From a virus: a stretch of DNA of 22,421 nucleotides. Below the pieces are notes generated by a model. The model was not told the DNA's origin. It did no database searches and worked only from the letters and a program-made list of their open reading frames with translations. Below are positions 1,216-22,421 of the stretch, in pieces (the first letter of the stretch is position 1; each line of letters opens with the position of its first letter). Both the position numbers and the translations under genes were made by a program. The stretch covers positions 1-22,421 of the IMG/VR virus record IMGVR_UViG_3300006924_000215, one strand, 5' to 3'.

Positions 1216-1425
1216 ATGGGAATCATCGAGGATTCTAAATCGTACACCACTAAGGCTCTCACTGAGCTTCTCGGTTACAAGCAGACACGCTCAGTTGACA
1301 AGCTGTTGCGAGACATTGGTTGTCCTGTCTTCTCTTCGGGTAGTCGCAAGATCGTTTCGGGTAAGCAATTTCGTTTAGCCTTGGAAAAGTCGTCATGTTC
1401 AAACACATCACGACATGGAAGTTGA
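1216..1425 (+). CDS. Small HTH DNA-binding protein, candidate excisionase/regulator (69 aa)
   Basis: The ATG at 1216 is chosen because AAAGGA lies 9 bases upstream. The region from residue 7 to about 50 (SYTTKALTELLGYK, then SVDKLLRDIGCPVF) resembles the winged-helix layout of excisionase and MerR-type DNA-binding domains: a helix choosing the site, a short turn, a second helix, then a basic hairpin (GSRKIVSGKQF). The gene overlaps the integrase start by 31 nt, so the two are probably translated together. By position it could be a directionality factor or an integrase regulator. No homologue is recognised with certainty. The last residues after about 60, in the overlap, look unstructured. Confidence 0.65.
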   Translation: MGIIEDSKSYTTKALTELLGYKQTRSVDKLLRDIGCPVFSSGSRKIVSGKQFRLALEKSSCSNTSRHGS

Positions 1426-2567
1426 TACGCCGGAAAGGAACCGGACCCTACATTCTCAGATTTACAACCGTCGCTGGAAAAACTGGTGAGCGGAAAACAT
1501 CTGAAACCACAAAACGCAAAGCTGACAAAGTAATCGTTGGTCTTCTTAAGAAGGCTGATGAAGATATCGAGGCAGCGCAACACGAAGAAGAACGCGAGCT
1601 GAATGGCTGGGACGAGTTCTGCGCCCGGTACATTGATGAGAAGCTTGCGTTTGGTCCGTACAAGACGCTTCAAGCGTTTGAAACTGCTAGAAACCGCCTC
1701 AATGAACTTTGCCCAGGCTTGGAGTGGGTGACGGACCTCGATGAACGAGTGTTCAGCCTGTTTGCTCTGAGGCTTAGGCAGGAGGGAAAGTCCATCTCCA
1801 CAGTGCATGCGTACCGTAACCATCTGATGGGAGCACTGAAGTGGGCGCGTCAGGTACGTCTGATCGATTCGCGACCAGATCCGCCGCCAATAGGAAAGAT
1901 TGATGACCCTGCGCGCGGTCGGCCAATTACAAGGGAAGAGGCCGAGCGTATAGCGATGCAGCTCCCGAGCGTAGTTACCGAGGAGTACGCTGACCGATGG
2001 GCGTGGAATCTGGAAGCCCTTTGGAGATCCGGCTTCCGGCTGGGGGAAACCTTTAAGTTTTTCTGGGAACCAACGCATGCTGGTCACTACGTCGTGGATC
2101 TTGAGTCGAATCGACCGATGATTCAGATCGTGGCTAGGGCAGAGAAGGCTAGACAGAACCGGCTCATACCGATGACTCCTGATTTTGCCTCGCTTCTCAG
2201 ATCGGTAAAAAAATCGAAACGACGCGACCTTGTCTTTCGATGGACGTTGTCGAAAGGCGACTCGATGAGCATCAAGACTGTGGGTAAATACATATCGCGA
2301 TGCGGGCGACAAGCTAATGTTGTCGTCAGCGACCGCGACGGTAAAAAACGGTTTGCAAGCTCGCATGAATTTAGGAGAAGTTTTGGCGCGAGATGGTCGC
2401 CAAAAGTAATGCCAGATACTTTACGAGTGATGATGCGCCACGCTTCTATTTCTACTACCCTCGAATACTACGTTCAAGCGAATGCAACCAAACATGCCGA
2501 TGCTCTTTACGAGGCGGTCGGTGACATGGCTGACGTTCAAACGCCTGTTCTCTCTTCAAAAACCTAA
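1395..2567 (+). CDS. int: Tyrosine recombinase / phage integrase
   Basis: A site-specific recombinase that would integrate and excise the phage genome through a 3'-phosphotyrosine intermediate. At 390 aa it has the usual length. Residues 1-60 form a basic arm-binding region and 70-160 a SAM-like core-binding domain. The catalytic domain spans about 175-365. Visible catalytic residues are R215 (GFRLGE), probably K251, the H324-x-x-R327 pair (HEFRR), H349 (MRHAS) and nucleophile Y358 nine residues later (LEYY). The set is complete, so the enzyme is probably active. The start overlaps the HTH gene by 31 nt. The stop lies 2 bp from a convergent tRNA gene, the usual arrangement when the attachment site is in that tRNA. 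Confidence 0.95.
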   Translation: MFKHITTWKLIRRKGTGPYILRFTTVAGKTGERKTSETTKRKADKVIVGLLKKADEDIEAAQHEEERELNGWDEFCARYIDEKLAFGPYKTLQAFETARNRLNELCPGLEWVTDLDERVFSLFALRLRQEGKSISTVHAYRNHLMGALKWARQVRLIDSRPDPPPIGKIDDPARGRPITREEAERIAMQLPSVVTEEYADRWAWNLEALWRSGFRLGETFKFFWEPTHAGHYVVDLESNRPMIQIVARAEKARQNRLIPMTPDFASLLRSVKKSKRRDLVFRWTLSKGDSMSIKTVGKYISRCGRQANVVVSDRDGKKRFASSHEFRRSFGARWSPKVMPDTLRVMMRHASISTTLEYYVQANATKHADALYEAVGDMADVQTPVLSSKT

Positions 2568-2569
2568 AG

Positions 2570-2652
2570 CGGATGACACGGGACTCGAACCCGCAACGGC
2601 TTGCGCCGCGCCTCAATTCCAATGAGGTTCCTCACCAATTCGGATATCATCC
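2570..2652 (-). tRNA. tRNA-Ser(GGA)-like gene
   Basis: On the minus strand, GGATGAT pairs with GTCATCC (last pair T-G) as the acceptor stem. The anticodon stem CCTCA/TGAGG closes the loop TTGGAAT, giving anticodon GGA (serine). A long variable arm (GCGGC-GCAA-GCCGT) fits a class II tRNA, and the T-arm is GCGGG-TTCGAGT-CCCGT. CCA is not encoded. The D-arm is TCC/GGA with a proper loop (A14, GG, A21), but if the acceptor has seven pairs only one base links it to the D stem, one fewer than normal. It has its own promoter and converges on the integrase. It may serve as the attachment site, be a working phage tRNA, or be slightly degenerate. Confidence 0.8.
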
Positions 2653-17637: not shown

Positions 17638-19683
17638 ATGGATGATTACGGACCACAACCGTCAGTCGGAGCGAAATACCCTCTTCAGCCAATCGTTGAC
17701 AGGTGGAAGAGAGTATTTGCGTCTGCTCGCAAAGACAGAAAAAAGAAGTTTGATGTCTACGCTGACGAGGCGATGACTTTCTACGATGGTCCTAACAATG
17801 CCATGTGGTCATCAATGCGTAATAGCGGTGGGGACCACGATGGTTTCTTGGGGAAAGATATCCCAAAGCCACAGTTTCAAATGTCGGTCAACCGGCTGTT
17901 TGAGGCAGTGTCGATGTTCGGACCAGTCCTGTATCACCAAAATCCGACCATTGCAGTGACACCTCGGCAGAATCCAGAGGTAAGCATTGAAACTTTTTAC
18001 GCGGGCAACCCAGAAGCAATGCAGTTACTTGCAATGTCTCAGGCTGTTCAGCAAGGAGTTGTTACAGATCCGTATATTATCCAAAGCGTTCAGATGCTGT
18101 ACCAGCAGTACCAGCAGAGCGTGGATACCGATCAAAAGGCTTCAATCATTGATGCTGATCATAGCAAGATCCTAGAGTCCATCAGTAATTACATACAGCA
18201 AGAGGGGAGCAAGCAAGATGAAGCTCGCCTAGCAATCACCGAGGCAATCATAACCGGCCTTGGGTTGCTTCATGTCGAGGTTGAGCAACCGCCAGGCGGT
18301 GGGCCGAAGATGGCTCGCAGTCGCTTTCGCACAAACAAGGATCTGTTGGTAGATCCAGATGCAAAGTATTGGCGAGATGTAACTTGGATAGCTCTGCGAA
18401 ATTGCCAGCCCGCGAATGTTGTCGAGGAAAAGTTTGGATTACCTCCCGGCTCCTTGAAAGGAAAGTATGCTCGCAAGTCTGCGATGGACAGCAAGTCATC
18501 GGGATCTAAGCGTAACGGGGATGGATCAACTGCTGGTGTTACGCATGATCTTGTCGAATACTGGGATGTTTACAGCAAGAATGGTGCAGGCCAAAACATA
18601 AAGCTTGGCTCTAAAGATAAAAAGGTAAAGGGGCTGGAGGTTCTCGGTGACTACGTTCATCTTGCAATCTGCGAGAGTTGTCCTTACCCACTCAATCTAG
18701 CACCAAACGTACTAGGCTCTGGTGACATGGAGCTAATACTGGAGCGGGCATCTTGGGAAGTACCTTTCTGGGATGACTACTGGTCTGACGGTGGTTGGCC
18801 CATTGTGCGACTGTCGTTTCATTCAAAGCCTGGCGAGGTGTATCCCATCTCGATGGTCAAGCCAGTTCTTGCTGAGTTAAAGTTTATCAACTGGTGCATG
18901 AGTTTCATTGCTGACAAGGTTGCAGCAGGGTCAAAGATATACGTCGGCGTCATGAAAGAAGCTGGCGAAAACATTAGGACTCAGTTGACATCTGGCTCAG
19001 GTCCGTTTTCGATAATTGATCTGGAACGCATTAGCGGTGCAAAGATTGGCGACATGGTTAGTTTCCTGAAAGCTCCTGAGTTTAACATGGAAATTTGGCG
19101 CATGATTAGCGAGGTCAACCAAGCCATCGACAAACGATTGGGCTTGACCGAGCTGATGTACGGAATGTCGGGCCGTCAGATGCGTTCGGCTGCTGAAGCG
19201 CAGTACCGACAGGAGAACATCAACATCCGTCCAGACGACATGGCATCGCGAGTTGAAGACTGGTTGTCTTTAAGCGCAACGCGAGAGATTCAGGCGATGA
19301 GGTATCTCGGTGAGTTTGAGGATCTTGTCCCAATCGTCGGTCAAACCGCTGCCAGTGTTTTTGCAGAGCAGATCCTGACGGACGATGTGTCTCGGATCAC
19401 TCGCGACTTTCGTTACCGAGTTGAAGCAGGTACGGCTCGCAAGCCAAATCGCGACACGCAAATTGCACAACTGACAGACATTGGTCAGTACATTCTTCCG
19501 GTCATTCAGCAAGCAATGATGAGTGGAGTCACTAGGCCGTTTAATGCGTACATGGAAGCACTTGGTAGAGCAATGGACATTGCTGTCGATCCGTTTTTGC
19601 TTGGTGATGAAGAGCAGCAAATGCTTATGCAAATGAACGCTCCACCAGAATCGCAACCCCCACAAGATGAGGCACAAGAATGA
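17638..19683 (+). CDS. Portal protein (681 aa)
   Basis: The dodecameric head-tail vertex and the DNA entry channel. Length and position fit: about 680 aa directly after terminase. Features: Gln-rich stretches (about 145-170), an RFRTNKDLLVDPDAKYWRD region (about 225-245), a long helical domain with LTELMYGMSGRQMRSAAEAQ (about 500-520), and a C-terminal acidic/Gln-rich tail (about 640-681). The central pattern of long helices and the MYG-x-SGRQ-like turn are typical of podovirus-like portals, in my judgement. It overlaps the next gene by 4 nt (ATGA). Tail genes would lie beyond the right edge. Confidence 0.8.
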   Translation: MDDYGPQPSVGAKYPLQPIVDRWKRVFASARKDRKKKFDVYADEAMTFYDGPNNAMWSSMRNSGGDHDGFLGKDIPKPQFQMSVNRLFEAVSMFGPVLYHQNPTIAVTPRQNPEVSIETFYAGNPEAMQLLAMSQAVQQGVVTDPYIIQSVQMLYQQYQQSVDTDQKASIIDADHSKILESISNYIQQEGSKQDEARLAITEAIITGLGLLHVEVEQPPGGGPKMARSRFRTNKDLLVDPDAKYWRDVTWIALRNCQPANVVEEKFGLPPGSLKGKYARKSAMDSKSSGSKRNGDGSTAGVTHDLVEYWDVYSKNGAGQNIKLGSKDKKVKGLEVLGDYVHLAICESCPYPLNLAPNVLGSGDMELILERASWEVPFWDDYWSDGGWPIVRLSFHSKPGEVYPISMVKPVLAELKFINWCMSFIADKVAAGSKIYVGVMKEAGENIRTQLTSGSGPFSIIDLERISGAKIGDMVSFLKAPEFNMEIWRMISEVNQAIDKRLGLTELMYGMSGRQMRSAAEAQYRQENINIRPDDMASRVEDWLSLSATREIQAMRYLGEFEDLVPIVGQTAASVFAEQILTDDVSRITRDFRYRVEAGTARKPNRDTQIAQLTDIGQYILPVIQQAMMSGVTRPFNAYMEALGRAMDIAVDPFLLGDEEQQMLMQMNAPPESQPPQDEAQE

Positions 19684-20231
19684 CCCCGCAACGCATGGCA
19701 AGCATCGAGGCAGAGATGGATTCTCTTGGCCTGAGAGAGGTGTATGACTGGTTACTAGAGGAAGGCAATACGCCGAACATGGCAGCAATGCTGGCGTCAC
19801 AGAAGCCACCTGGTAGCTGGAATACGGACGCTGATTTTAATCGTCGCGAAAACGGTCGAATGGCCGCGATGGAAGACGAGAACCTTCAAGCGATCAACAC
19901 GATTGCCAGGCGAAGCGGCATCAGTACGCAGGGCAAGACGTACAACGGCCAGCTTGGCAAATATGACGACCCTGCCGCATGGGTCGCTGGAACAGGCGAC
20001 GTTCGGGCGGCTGCTATCAAGAAACAATTCAACATCGATGGAATGGTCAAGGTTCAGGGCTACAAAGGACGCAAAAAGAAAACTCGCCTTGCATCAGACA
20101 TAGTTGACTCGCTGGAACGCCGCGCGCGGTCTAAGAATGCAAAGCTAGATGAAAAATGCCGCAGCAGTGATAATGCTAGAGCGGACCTGAGAAACAAGCT
20201 TATAAGCAAACATAGCAAGCCAAGGGATTGA
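19680..20231 (+). CDS. Hypothetical phage protein, head/tail module (183 aa)
   Basis: It starts in an ATGA overlap with the portal, with GAGG upstream. The N-terminal half looks helical and acidic (SIEAEMDSLGLREVYDWLLE), the middle carries TDADFNRRENGRMAAMED, a pattern I recall from phage structural-region hypotheticals, and the C-terminus is strongly basic (GRKKKTRLAS, ERRARSKNAK). Its location after the portal suggests a head completion or ejection-related protein, but no motif confirms this. No signal peptide or membrane segment is present. Confidence 0.65.
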   Translation: MTPQRMASIEAEMDSLGLREVYDWLLEEGNTPNMAAMLASQKPPGSWNTDADFNRRENGRMAAMEDENLQAINTIARRSGISTQGKTYNGQLGKYDDPAAWVAGTGDVRAAAIKKQFNIDGMVKVQGYKGRKKKTRLASDIVDSLERRARSKNAKLDEKCRSSDNARADLRNKLISKHSKPRD

Positions 20232-20233
20232 CT

Positions 20234-20548
20234 GTGAATTACTTGATGAGCAACGAAAGAAGACGCGAGGTTAGGTGGGTCGCAAGGACTGCTTACTTGA
20301 AAACAGCAGAACGCTTTATTACGCCGCACCTCAACCAGCCTGAAATACTAAGAATCACGCTGGGCGAAACTAGGCAAAAGCTCATCGAAAGCAAGCGATT
20401 CAAATCTGTGCTTGGTGGCGTGTTTCTCGCACTGGCAATGAAGTTCGCAGTCAAGATGATCGAACAGTGGATTGAAGACAACTTGTTTACCGAAGCTTCA
20501 CTTCCAAGGGACTACGCAAAAGGAGAACCGGGCTATGCTGAGAAATAA
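20234..20548 (+). CDS. Small protein with hydrophobic helix (104 aa)
   Basis: The GTG at 20234 follows AAGGGA by 6 bases and is preferred over a TTG at 20228 and an ATG at 20246. Residues about 57-74 (KSVLGGVFLALAMKFAVKM) are hydrophobic enough for membrane association, flanked by Arg/Lys-rich N-terminal helices. The gene overlaps the two-TM protein gene by 14 nt. It could be part of a membrane complex encoded by the next genes. Function unknown. Confidence 0.6.
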   Translation: MNYLMSNERRREVRWVARTAYLKTAERFITPHLNQPEILRITLGETRQKLIESKRFKSVLGGVFLALAMKFAVKMIEQWIEDNLFTEASLPRDYAKGEPGYAEK

Positions 20549-20918
20549 CCGAACGTGGCAGTTCCTTTGCGGGTGCTTTGTAATCTTTCTTGCATTCCAG
20601 TGCTGGTCGCTGGGGATCGTCCAGTGGTTCTACAGCGAAGACACAGAGGGATTCGAGAGCGTGTCCCTGATACCGTTAATCTTAAGCGCTGTCGTCAGCG
20701 CGATCCAAATGGTCGGATTGATAGCCATCATTTTGGTCAGCGGATTGCAGCCGCTCGCAGAAAAAACAGTGGACTACCTTCGCTCAAAGATGCCAAAGCT
20801 AAACCGTGCGGCTCAAGTAATCGAGGAGAAAGTAGATGCCGAAAAGCTTGTTGAAACGCTTAACGACCTGGACCAGCGGATTCGCTCGATTGAAATCAAA
20901 GTTGGGGATGACAAGTGA
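20535..20918 (+). CDS. Two-TM membrane protein with coiled-coil tail (127 aa)
   Basis: The ATG at 20535 follows AAAGGAG by 9 bases. Hydrophobic segments at about 10-32 (WQFLCGCFVIFLAFQCWSLG and on) and 46-71 (LIPLILSAVVSAIQMVGLIA and on) indicate two spans. The C-terminal 55 residues (VEKLVETLNDLDQRIRSIE-type, with DAEKLVETLNDLD) are predicted coiled coil. The shape is compatible with a class II holin, but the long coiled-coil tail is unusual for one, so a membrane anchor or channel component is an alternative. It overlaps the next gene by 4 nt. Confidence 0.65.
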   Translation: MLRNNRTWQFLCGCFVIFLAFQCWSLGIVQWFYSEDTEGFESVSLIPLILSAVVSAIQMVGLIAIILVSGLQPLAEKTVDYLRSKMPKLNRAAQVIEEKVDAEKLVETLNDLDQRIRSIEIKVGDDK

Positions 20919-21370
20919 TAGACATCCTTCAGGACAAAACGCCTGTGCCTGTTCAAAAGCAGGAGCATGTACCCAAGGGCTTCAAAGCAAGTGTATTGCT
21001 TGCTGTTGCGCTTGCTTGGGTGGTGTACGACACGGCTTACTGGAAGAAGTTTGTTCCTGCGATTGTGGTTCCTGTTGAAAGGTCAGCGCAAGTATTGTTC
21101 GTCACAGCAGACGACATGACTCCGGGGCAAGGCCAAGCCAGTGTCAGTCTTAAAGTCGATGACTTCTGTGACAAGAACGGAATAGAGAAGCGGCGACTTG
21201 AGGTCGGCCAAGACACATCCGGTGCTGAGAAGTGGCTGCAAGAGATGGCTGAGATCGGGTACGGACAAGCACCAGCAGTGGTGTTTCGTTCCAAGTCCGG
21301 TCAGCTCGACTGCATCCCAATGCCAAGCAGCATTGATGATACGATCTCCGAGATAGGAGACAGGCTATGA
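20915..21370 (+). CDS. Membrane-anchored thioredoxin-like protein (151 aa)
   Basis: It starts with GTG in a GTGA overlap. A single span (about 24-43, KASVLLAVALAWVVYDTAYW) is followed by a soluble domain. That domain has the order of a thioredoxin fold: a strand (QVLFVT), a segment with DDFCDKNGI, a second strand, a helix (AEKWLQEMAEIG), then the APAVVF strand that matches the cis-proline strand, and SKSGQLDC near the end. The CxxC active site is absent, so redox activity is unlikely; it may be a binding or scaffolding domain. It lies directly before the papain-like peptidase, with 4 nt overlap. Confidence 0.5.
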   Translation: MIDILQDKTPVPVQKQEHVPKGFKASVLLAVALAWVVYDTAYWKKFVPAIVVPVERSAQVLFVTADDMTPGQGQASVSLKVDDFCDKNGIEKRRLEVGQDTSGAEKWLQEMAEIGYGQAPAVVFRSKSGQLDCIPMPSSIDDTISEIGDRL

Positions 21371-22143
21371 GCGACATTAGCTGGGATGCAAACACAGATG
21401 CTGTGTGTGGATACGAGTCTCGCGACTGGGACTTACATCCACAGTTCAGCTCGCACGAAGAATACACAGGCACAGTCTATCCGCGAAAAGACTGGGTGGA
21501 ACTGATCGAGCTACAGAAGAAAAATCGAACAAGCCCGATGCACATCCACAAGGGCAACGAGGTTCCAATCCTGAATCAAGGTCGCTATGGCTATTGCTGG
21601 ATGTACGGAACTGTAGGCTGCATCCTTAATAGATATGCAGCGCAGGGTATTGATCCAGCCCCTAACCTGAATGCACACAGCACCGCTGCAATGGGTAAGA
21701 GGTATCGAAACCAAGGAGGGTTCGGGGTTGAAAGTACGGGGTACATTCAACAGAGGGGGGTAGCTACCTACGACACTTGGCCTGAGTTCAGTAATGACAG
21801 GTCGCTTGAGACTGACCCCAAGGTGATTGCAGATTGCAAGAAGCACAAGCTTGTGACCTTTGAAGAGATGCCTCGCGACAGCTTTGATGCTGTCATGTCT
21901 TGTTTGATTGATCCCATTGATCCATCCCCATGCACCCTAGCCTTTAGTTGGTGGAGACACCTAGTTGCTGGTCTGTGCGGGATGTATCGCGGCAGTGGTC
22001 GCAACATCGAATGGGGTTTAGGGTTTGCAAACAGTTGGACAGAAAAGTGGGGCCAGAAGGGGTACGGCACGGTCTGGAACTCCAAAGCAAAACCATTTGA
22101 ATCAGTAGCAGTTCGTTCAGTCAAAGCGGTAAAGGAAGTTTGA
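21367..22143 (+). CDS. Papain-like (C1-type) cysteine peptidase (258 aa)
   Basis: A cysteine protease candidate. The catalytic set of papain-like enzymes is visible in order: oxyanion Gln71 and nucleophile Cys77 in NQGRYGYCWMYG, His198 in SWWRHLVAG, and Asn222 in FANSWTEKWGQKGYG. Length is typical for a mature C1 domain (about 215-260 aa), and there is no clear signal peptide, so it is probably cytoplasmic or packaged in the virion. It overlaps the preceding gene by 4 nt. Papain-like peptidases are rare in phages. Roles could be processing virion proteins, cleaving host proteins on infection, or attacking a proteinaceous cell surface. Confidence 0.85.
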   Translation: MSDISWDANTDAVCGYESRDWDLHPQFSSHEEYTGTVYPRKDWVELIELQKKNRTSPMHIHKGNEVPILNQGRYGYCWMYGTVGCILNRYAAQGIDPAPNLNAHSTAAMGKRYRNQGGFGVESTGYIQQRGVATYDTWPEFSNDRSLETDPKVIADCKKHKLVTFEEMPRDSFDAVMSCLIDPIDPSPCTLAFSWWRHLVAGLCGMYRGSGRNIEWGLGFANSWTEKWGQKGYGTVWNSKAKPFESVAVRSVKAVKEV

Positions 22144-22144
22144 T

Positions 22145-22421
22145 ATGAGACTCACAAAGTTAGCAGATGCTTGTTTGTATTTCATGGCAGGGTCGGTGAT
22201 CTTAGCAGTCGTTGCGGCGTTCGTCGGCCAGATGTCAGAGGGCGCGACAGCACAGGAAGCCCAAGAACATTATGAGGATGTTTCTGAACCAATCATCTTG
22301 ACGGCAACCGAGTCAGCAGAAGTTCAGTTAGCCTCGGCAAGAAAGCCAGTCCGATCCGCAGCAAGCAGTTGCGTGAACGGAGTGTGTGGTGTGGCTGCAA
22401 ACATACAGGCAAGCAAGCCAG
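22145..22421 (+). CDS. Secreted or membrane-anchored protein, 3' end cut by the window
   Basis: AAGGAAG precedes the ATG by 6-7 bases. The N-terminus has a signal-peptide shape: a basic start (MRLTKLADAC), a hydrophobic core (LYFMAGSVILAVVAAFVGQM), and an ATAQ-A cleavage-like site around residues 33-37. The following part is acidic, then Ser/Ala/Arg-rich with a CVNGVCGVAAN Cys pair. The frame stays open to the window edge, so the protein is at least 92 aa. It follows the peptidase by one base. It may belong to the same membrane/envelope cassette. Confidence 0.6.
   Translation, partial: MRLTKLADACLYFMAGSVILAVVAAFVGQMSEGATAQEAQEHYEDVSEPIILTATESAEVQLASARKPVRSAASSCVNGVCGVAANIQASKP

Follow-up and report, generated by a model that had tools for sequence, protein, structure and literature searches.

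The right-hand end of a viral DNA fragment raises the question of what a phage does with a tight row of genes, placed behind its portal region, that encode small membrane proteins, a thioredoxin-like protein and a papain-like protease. The window analysed here is the complete IMG/VR record IMGVR_UViG_3300006924_000215, a linear fragment of 22,421 bases in which an integrase gene is followed by scaffold-, capsid- and terminase-like genes, the portal gene, a gene named u and five coupled genes (Table 1). The labels HH, TM2, TRX, PEP, SEC and HOL were coined in this analysis. The initial annotation had placed five tightly coupled genes at positions 20234-22421 and had proposed that they form an undescribed lysis, ejection or host-surface complex. 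The boundaries read from the sequence bear out the coupling: HH starts after a 2-nt gap behind u, HH and TM2 overlap by 14 nt, TM2/TRX and TRX/PEP share 4-nt overlaps (GTGA and ATGA, respectively), and SEC follows PEP after 1 nt. The five protein types proposed for these genes were recovered by hydropathy, Pfam (PF00112), Foldseek searches with AlphaFold models and alignments. A promoter and terminator scan gave no signal above shuffles. Directly after the integrase gene, the window carries a tRNA-Ser(GGA)-like sequence (2569-2652, minus strand) that is also present in the relative G002 (L035:18046-18129); it is not recognised by Rfam at the gathering threshold and may correspond to an attachment site within a tRNA-Ser gene of the host.

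Table 1. Coordinates of the features discussed, as positions in the window
Feature	Coordinates	Strand	Remarks and basis
Integrase	1395-2567		
Portal / head-tail adaptor	17638..19683	+	PHROG 332 'head-tail adaptor', E 9e-7; Pfam SU10 portal weak, E 0.028
Gene u	19680..20231	+	Conserved neighbour at the left border of the cassette, outside the module; identity correlations
HH	20234 (GTG)..20548	+	104 aa; sequence, hydropathy
TM2	20535 (ATG)..20918	+	127 aa; AGGAGA upstream of start
TRX	20915 (GTG)..21370	+	151 aa; alignments, predicted model, Foldseek
PEP	21367 (ATG)..22143	+	258 aa; Pfam, PDB sequence search, Foldseek, alignment
SEC	22145 (ATG)..22421, cut by window end	+	Hydropathy, full-length sequences of relatives

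PEP matches the Pfam family PF00112 (Peptidase_C1) with 24.8 bits, above the cut-off of 20.7, and the divergent PEP of L078 reaches 17.9 bits, below that cut-off. A PDB sequence search with PEP returned cathepsin K and ficin (E about 1e-6), and Foldseek with its AlphaFold model returned cathepsin K/L, papain and xylellain (best E 5.6e-6, cathepsin K, TMt 0.64); confidence in this model is low (mean pLDDT 57), but the sequence evidence agrees with its fold. In an alignment of 21 PEP sequences, with identity down to 34%, the residues Q71, C77, H198 and N222 are invariant. This result speaks against a catalytically dead peptidase, as the catalytic residues were kept in all 21 sequences, and together with the PF00112 score and the predicted fold it upholds the papain-like assignment of the initial annotation. 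By sequence and model, PEP is a papain-family (C1) cysteine peptidase with intact active-site residues and predicted proteolytic activity. Neither a signal peptide nor another export signal was detected in PEP by hydropathy.

HH, TM2, TRX and SEC of the window have no significant match among Pfam or PHROG families. HH has a basic N-terminal half and a single C-terminal hydrophobic or amphipathic helix (residues 58-76), and its homologues occupy the same position in nearly all cassette-bearing contigs, none being found in L054. TM2 displays, by hydropathy, two TM helices (11-29 and 48-66), an acidic loop and a C-terminal coiled coil, with a predicted N-in/C-in topology. TRX combines an N-terminal TM helix with a thioredoxin-fold domain (residues 58-150) modelled by AlphaFold at a pLDDT of about 90, for which the top PDB matches in Foldseek were thioredoxins, PDI/Dsb domains and peroxiredoxins (best E 1.1e-3, probability 1.0). 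The alignments contain no CxxC motif in TRX, in agreement with its earlier description as a thioredoxin-like protein lacking this motif, and a redox role was rejected because no cysteine is conserved across the divergent set. A match of TRX to protein-arginine deiminase (PAD, E 0.0022) was discounted in view of the thioredoxin-like model. In three contigs (L078, L079 and L082), TM2 and TRX are naturally fused into one ORF, which argues that the two proteins act together; by the positive-inside rule, the fusion would place the thioredoxin fold outside the cytoplasm.

SEC is a small membrane-anchored or secreted protein with an N-terminal anchor (TM about 9-27) and a CVNGVC motif, and its full-length form in close relatives has 115 aa. 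The C-terminal tails of SEC in relatives are strongly cationic (RRGIFFRWRKR, RRRRFFQRFFRR, RRRGLFRWRR, KKKRLMRLFRRR); the last 12 residues carry a net charge of +4 to +8, and +6 is reached by about 1% of 486 background proteins. In L141, L143, L145 and L147, SEC contains CGPC or CPPC in a thioredoxin-like context; the PDB sequence search was not significant, and the thioredoxin identity is supported at motif level. In L012, SEC is followed by a second gene, which encodes a secreted thioredoxin of its own (PF00085, 3.6e-7). The match of an Rz-like spanin profile to one SEC only (E 0.076) was not significant. HOL, of about 80 aa with one TM helix and a coiled coil, follows SEC in nearly all relatives, beyond the end of the window, and matches only a PHROG of unknown function (E 0.001). 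The size and TM helices of HOL and TM2 are compatible with holins, and neither protein matched a holin family. Among other secreted proteins, those encoded at L035:8380-8889 and at 52293-52496 of G007, in two unrelated cassette-bearing phages, have a common QLIFWDWS motif.

The distribution of the cassette was analysed by scanning 2.9 million viral contigs with PEP, TRX, the portal, gene u and HOL. The order HH-TM2-TRX-PEP-(SEC) was recovered in another 28 IMG/VR contigs, of which a few are incomplete or nearly identical to each other. In every PEP-bearing contig TRX and TM2 lie directly upstream, and among the scanned contigs neither TRX nor TM2 was found without PEP except at contig ends, which is the outcome that bears on whether the genes occur separately in relatives. 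A scan with HOL alone yielded 16 contigs, 13 with the full cassette and two with an alternative protease cassette; in the remaining one, G006, HOL lies near the portal and the cassette elsewhere. Across 12 contigs with the same portal, pairwise identities within the set HH, TM2, TRX and PEP are correlated (Mantel r 0.82-0.92, p<=0.002), whereas those of the cassette genes against portal or u are not (r -0.05 to 0.11; u alone -0.05 to 0.07), and the identities of the portal follow those of u (r 0.51, p 0.001). The L078 contig shares with the window 79% identity in the portal, 43% in PEP, 29% in TRX and 30% in TM2. When L078, L082 and L053 were left out, r remained at 0.75 for TRX-PEP and was only 0.22 for TM2-PEP, and therefore recombination also takes place within the block; exchange of this kind is also seen in the window, whose HH is 93% identical to that of G001 and whose TM2 is only 71% identical.

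The genomic location of the block is also variable. In the window-type arrangement it lies between portal/u and the tail genes. In G011 it is located after SSB and before an integrase gene, in L140-L147 after helicase or RusA-like genes, and in L139-L147 directly before LamG-like or fibre-like genes. G006 has a lambda-type portal family and carries the cassette on the strand opposite to the virion genes, G007 has a capsid of the Phage_capsid family (PF05065), and a homologue of the window-type portal is absent from G006, G007 and G011; in G012 the cassette is present on a backbone that also lacks a portal homologue. HH-TM2-TRX-PEP-SEC-HOL is thus co-inherited and swapped largely as a unit between unrelated phages. 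The recurrent order and the co-divergence of the genes strongly support the proposal of an undescribed coupled cassette: tblastn found neither PEP nor TRX in named phages, and in the literature searched no lysis module of phages with a papain-like enzyme was described. Judged from sequence, it is a new six-gene unit in which a protease with an intact catalytic set is combined with a putative membrane and thioredoxin-fold scaffold.

Several features of the neighbourhood were observed in passing. Many relatives carry between u and HH two small lysine-rich proteins (KPGQWSARKAQMLALAYKKAGGGY, SLEKWTSEKWRTSDGK...; L003:6345-6823, L007:3212-3753, L078:11599-12077), an insertion that is absent from the window. 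G004 (IMGVR_UViG_3300025085_000016, 63,415 bp; L077, L081) has two different portal/u/HH/TM2 copies near its ends and is probably a chimeric assembly of two related phages. The region immediately before the cassette in G006 and G007, which have unrelated capsids, encodes a calcineurin-like phosphoesterase together with an SPFH/Band_7-like protein (L012:4945-6724, E 3.2e-4; L013:5212-6913, E 2.5e-3); neither NfeD nor FtsH was seen in cassette neighbourhoods.

Further evidence on function came from contigs that share gene u and have enough downstream sequence to compare the equivalent slot. The slot contains PEP, a second protein, PEP2 (L019), or a secreted trypsin-like protease (L095-L098, L103), so that in relatives other proteases replace PEP at the same genomic position. 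PEP2 of L019 and L134 conserves the motifs QLIGSC, SWAH and ENSWG, and its similarity to the PEP profile is weak (hhalign E 0.042, probability 1.3%; Pfam E 0.1-0.2); by these motifs, it is probably papain-like. The trypsin-like protease (PF00089, 2.4e-13; PF13365, 1.3e-19 in L097/L103) belongs to the more distant relatives L095-L098 and L103, where it adjoins a nuclease-like gene; both genes follow u at L097:6689-8584 and L103:12554-14347. In L097 and L103 this protease contains collagen-like repeats and a C-x-G-G-Q-C motif, and the contig of L097 also carries a one-TM coiled-coil gene near the slot. No murein hydrolase was found in the slot among the contigs compared.

The same enzymes were searched for genome-wide. 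Pfam scans, four of them with lists of up to 25 families, covered the called proteins of G002, G006 and G012 and the majority of those of G007 and G011. Tape-measure-like proteins of 3,628 aa (G002) and 2,209 aa (G006) were among those scanned, in contrast to a 6,659-aa protein of G011. The latter is encoded by a single ORF (22220-42199; L106/L107) downstream of the tail genes of this podovirus-like relative. Among the Pfam families listed for these five relatives, which are not certified complete, there was no lysozyme, amidase, M23, CHAP or other murein hydrolase; PHROGs revealed none in G002 and G007, and the cassette itself encodes none. The cassette proteins had no significant match to holin, spanin or lysis families. 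A novel endolysin family could be hidden among the uncharacterised proteins.

Altogether, these findings favour, at a probability of roughly 40%, a module with which the phage breaks through the envelope of its host by proteolysis, and most likely a lysis cassette. Among the functions initially proposed, envelope attack or lysis thus becomes the best reading, in view of the endolysin search that found none in the relatives scanned, the protease swaps and the cationic or CxxC-bearing partner, and ejection becomes less likely because the cassette lies outside the virion-gene cluster in two unrelated phages (G006, G011). Within the lysis model we infer the localisations, the holin-like role and the substrate as follows. 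TM2 and TRX would together build a platform in the inner membrane, the coiled coil lying on its inner side and the redox-inactive thioredoxin fold on its outer side. HOL, TM2 or both would be holin-like and either release cytosolic PEP or organise the inner membrane. Once out, PEP would cut envelope proteins, while SEC, anchored on the outside, might perturb the outer membrane through its cationic tail in a disruptin- or spanin-like manner; in some phages, its CxxC domain may keep thiols reduced, either in the PEP cysteine or in disulfide-linked envelope proteins. What TRX and HH would contribute to lysis is not obvious, and the cassette of G006 is a point against the model, as it stands amid SPFH, phosphoesterase and PhoH genes and not among late genes.

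The main rival is a proteolytic complex at the membrane that would serve host takeover or superinfection exclusion, with TM2 and TRX as an inner-membrane scaffold for PEP, which would cut host membrane proteins or the ejection proteins of incoming phages. In favour of this rival, PEP lacks an export signal and its gene is coupled to those of two membrane proteins, SPFH/Band_7 and calcineurin-like phosphoesterase genes stand directly upstream in G006 and G007 with PhoH downstream in G006, the cassette location is variable and sometimes adjoins replication genes, and the phages look temperate, given the integrase. However, the protease that fills the slot in relatives is Sec-exported and trypsin-like, and therefore its substrate is likely extracytoplasmic; SPFH adjoins the cassette in two contigs only, and a secreted SEC with a cationic tail or CxxC fits poorly, so that we consider this explanation rather unlikely. 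It is improbable that the proteins belong to the virion and help the infecting particle through a proteinaceous surface layer. The window-type block does lie between portal/u and tail genes and, in L139-L147, directly before LamG-like or fibre-like genes, as a host-range-linked block might, but a TM helix or signal anchor is present in most of the six proteins, the blocks of G006 and G011 stand apart from the virion genes, and the histories of portal and cassette are uncorrelated. Equally improbable is a moron-like modification of the surface, in which the proteases would remodel surface proteins of the infected or lysogenic cell (e.g. receptors, adhesins) without lysis: frequent exchange, the integrase in the window and the swap with a secreted protease bearing collagen-like repeats are in its favour, but PEP lacks a signal peptide, and every lineage with enough downstream sequence kept some protease at the slot, more than expected for an accessory moron.

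The initial annotation had reasoned that an envelope-attacking protease would make sense in some planctomycetes, in which a normal cell wall is lacking or modified. This rationale was rejected as stated, because planctomycetes have lysozyme-sensitive peptidoglycan (PMC4432640) and because no host could be assigned. Contig scans with PEP and portal alignments and plasmid searches with SEC and TerL assigned none, and searches against named phages with PEP, portal, TerL, MCP, TRX, tail and slot proteases yielded nothing beyond a match of the MCP to a Bradyrhizobium phage at 24%. The planctomycete family PF07587 was not detected in the control genomes.

The cassette was compared with its closest known systems. 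With the papain family C1 (cathepsins K/L, papain, xylellain), PEP shares the Gln-Cys-His-Asn catalytic set, the Q-G-x-x-x-x-C-W and N-S-W motifs and the predicted fold; unlike known C1 peptidases, to which it is about 20% identical, it has no signal peptide, its N-terminal segment of 55-60 residues is non-canonical and its gene is part of a phage membrane-protein operon. Membrane proteases partnered with SPFH proteins are represented by HflKC-FtsH and stomatin-NfeD. An SPFH gene likewise adjoins the cassette in two phages only (L012, L013), but the cassette protease is papain-like and most cassette neighbourhoods lack SPFH. Disruptins such as that of PhiKT are short amphipathic phage lysis peptides (PMC12819732). 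SEC similarly has a cationic stretch, proposed to disturb the outer membrane, and differs in being an anchored protein of 65-150 aa that is cationic only at its C-terminal tail and for which the activity is a candidate one; by resemblance, disruptins would be its closest known analogue.

The current picture of phage lysis consists almost wholly of murein hydrolysis combined with membrane disruption. If the cassette uses a protease to lyse the cell or breach its envelope, with three proteases able to fill the slot, it would extend the concept of the endolysin and hint at hosts in which proteins give the envelope its strength. It is possible, if doubtful, that widespread undescribed phages lyse by proteolysis rather than murein hydrolysis, by means of interchangeable proteases (two papain-like and one secreted trypsin-like) that a dedicated membrane module would deliver and that a secreted partner, cationic or active on thiols, would assist. 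Compared with the holin-endolysin-spanin/disruptin cassettes of tailed phages, recognised holin, Rz and Rz1 are all absent here, the enzyme is a protease and not a murein hydrolase, and a redox-inactive thioredoxin-fold membrane protein is added. In common with them, the cassette is a compact coupled block exchanged as a module, with one or more small TM proteins, a soluble enzyme without signal peptide and a putative anchored cationic outer protein.
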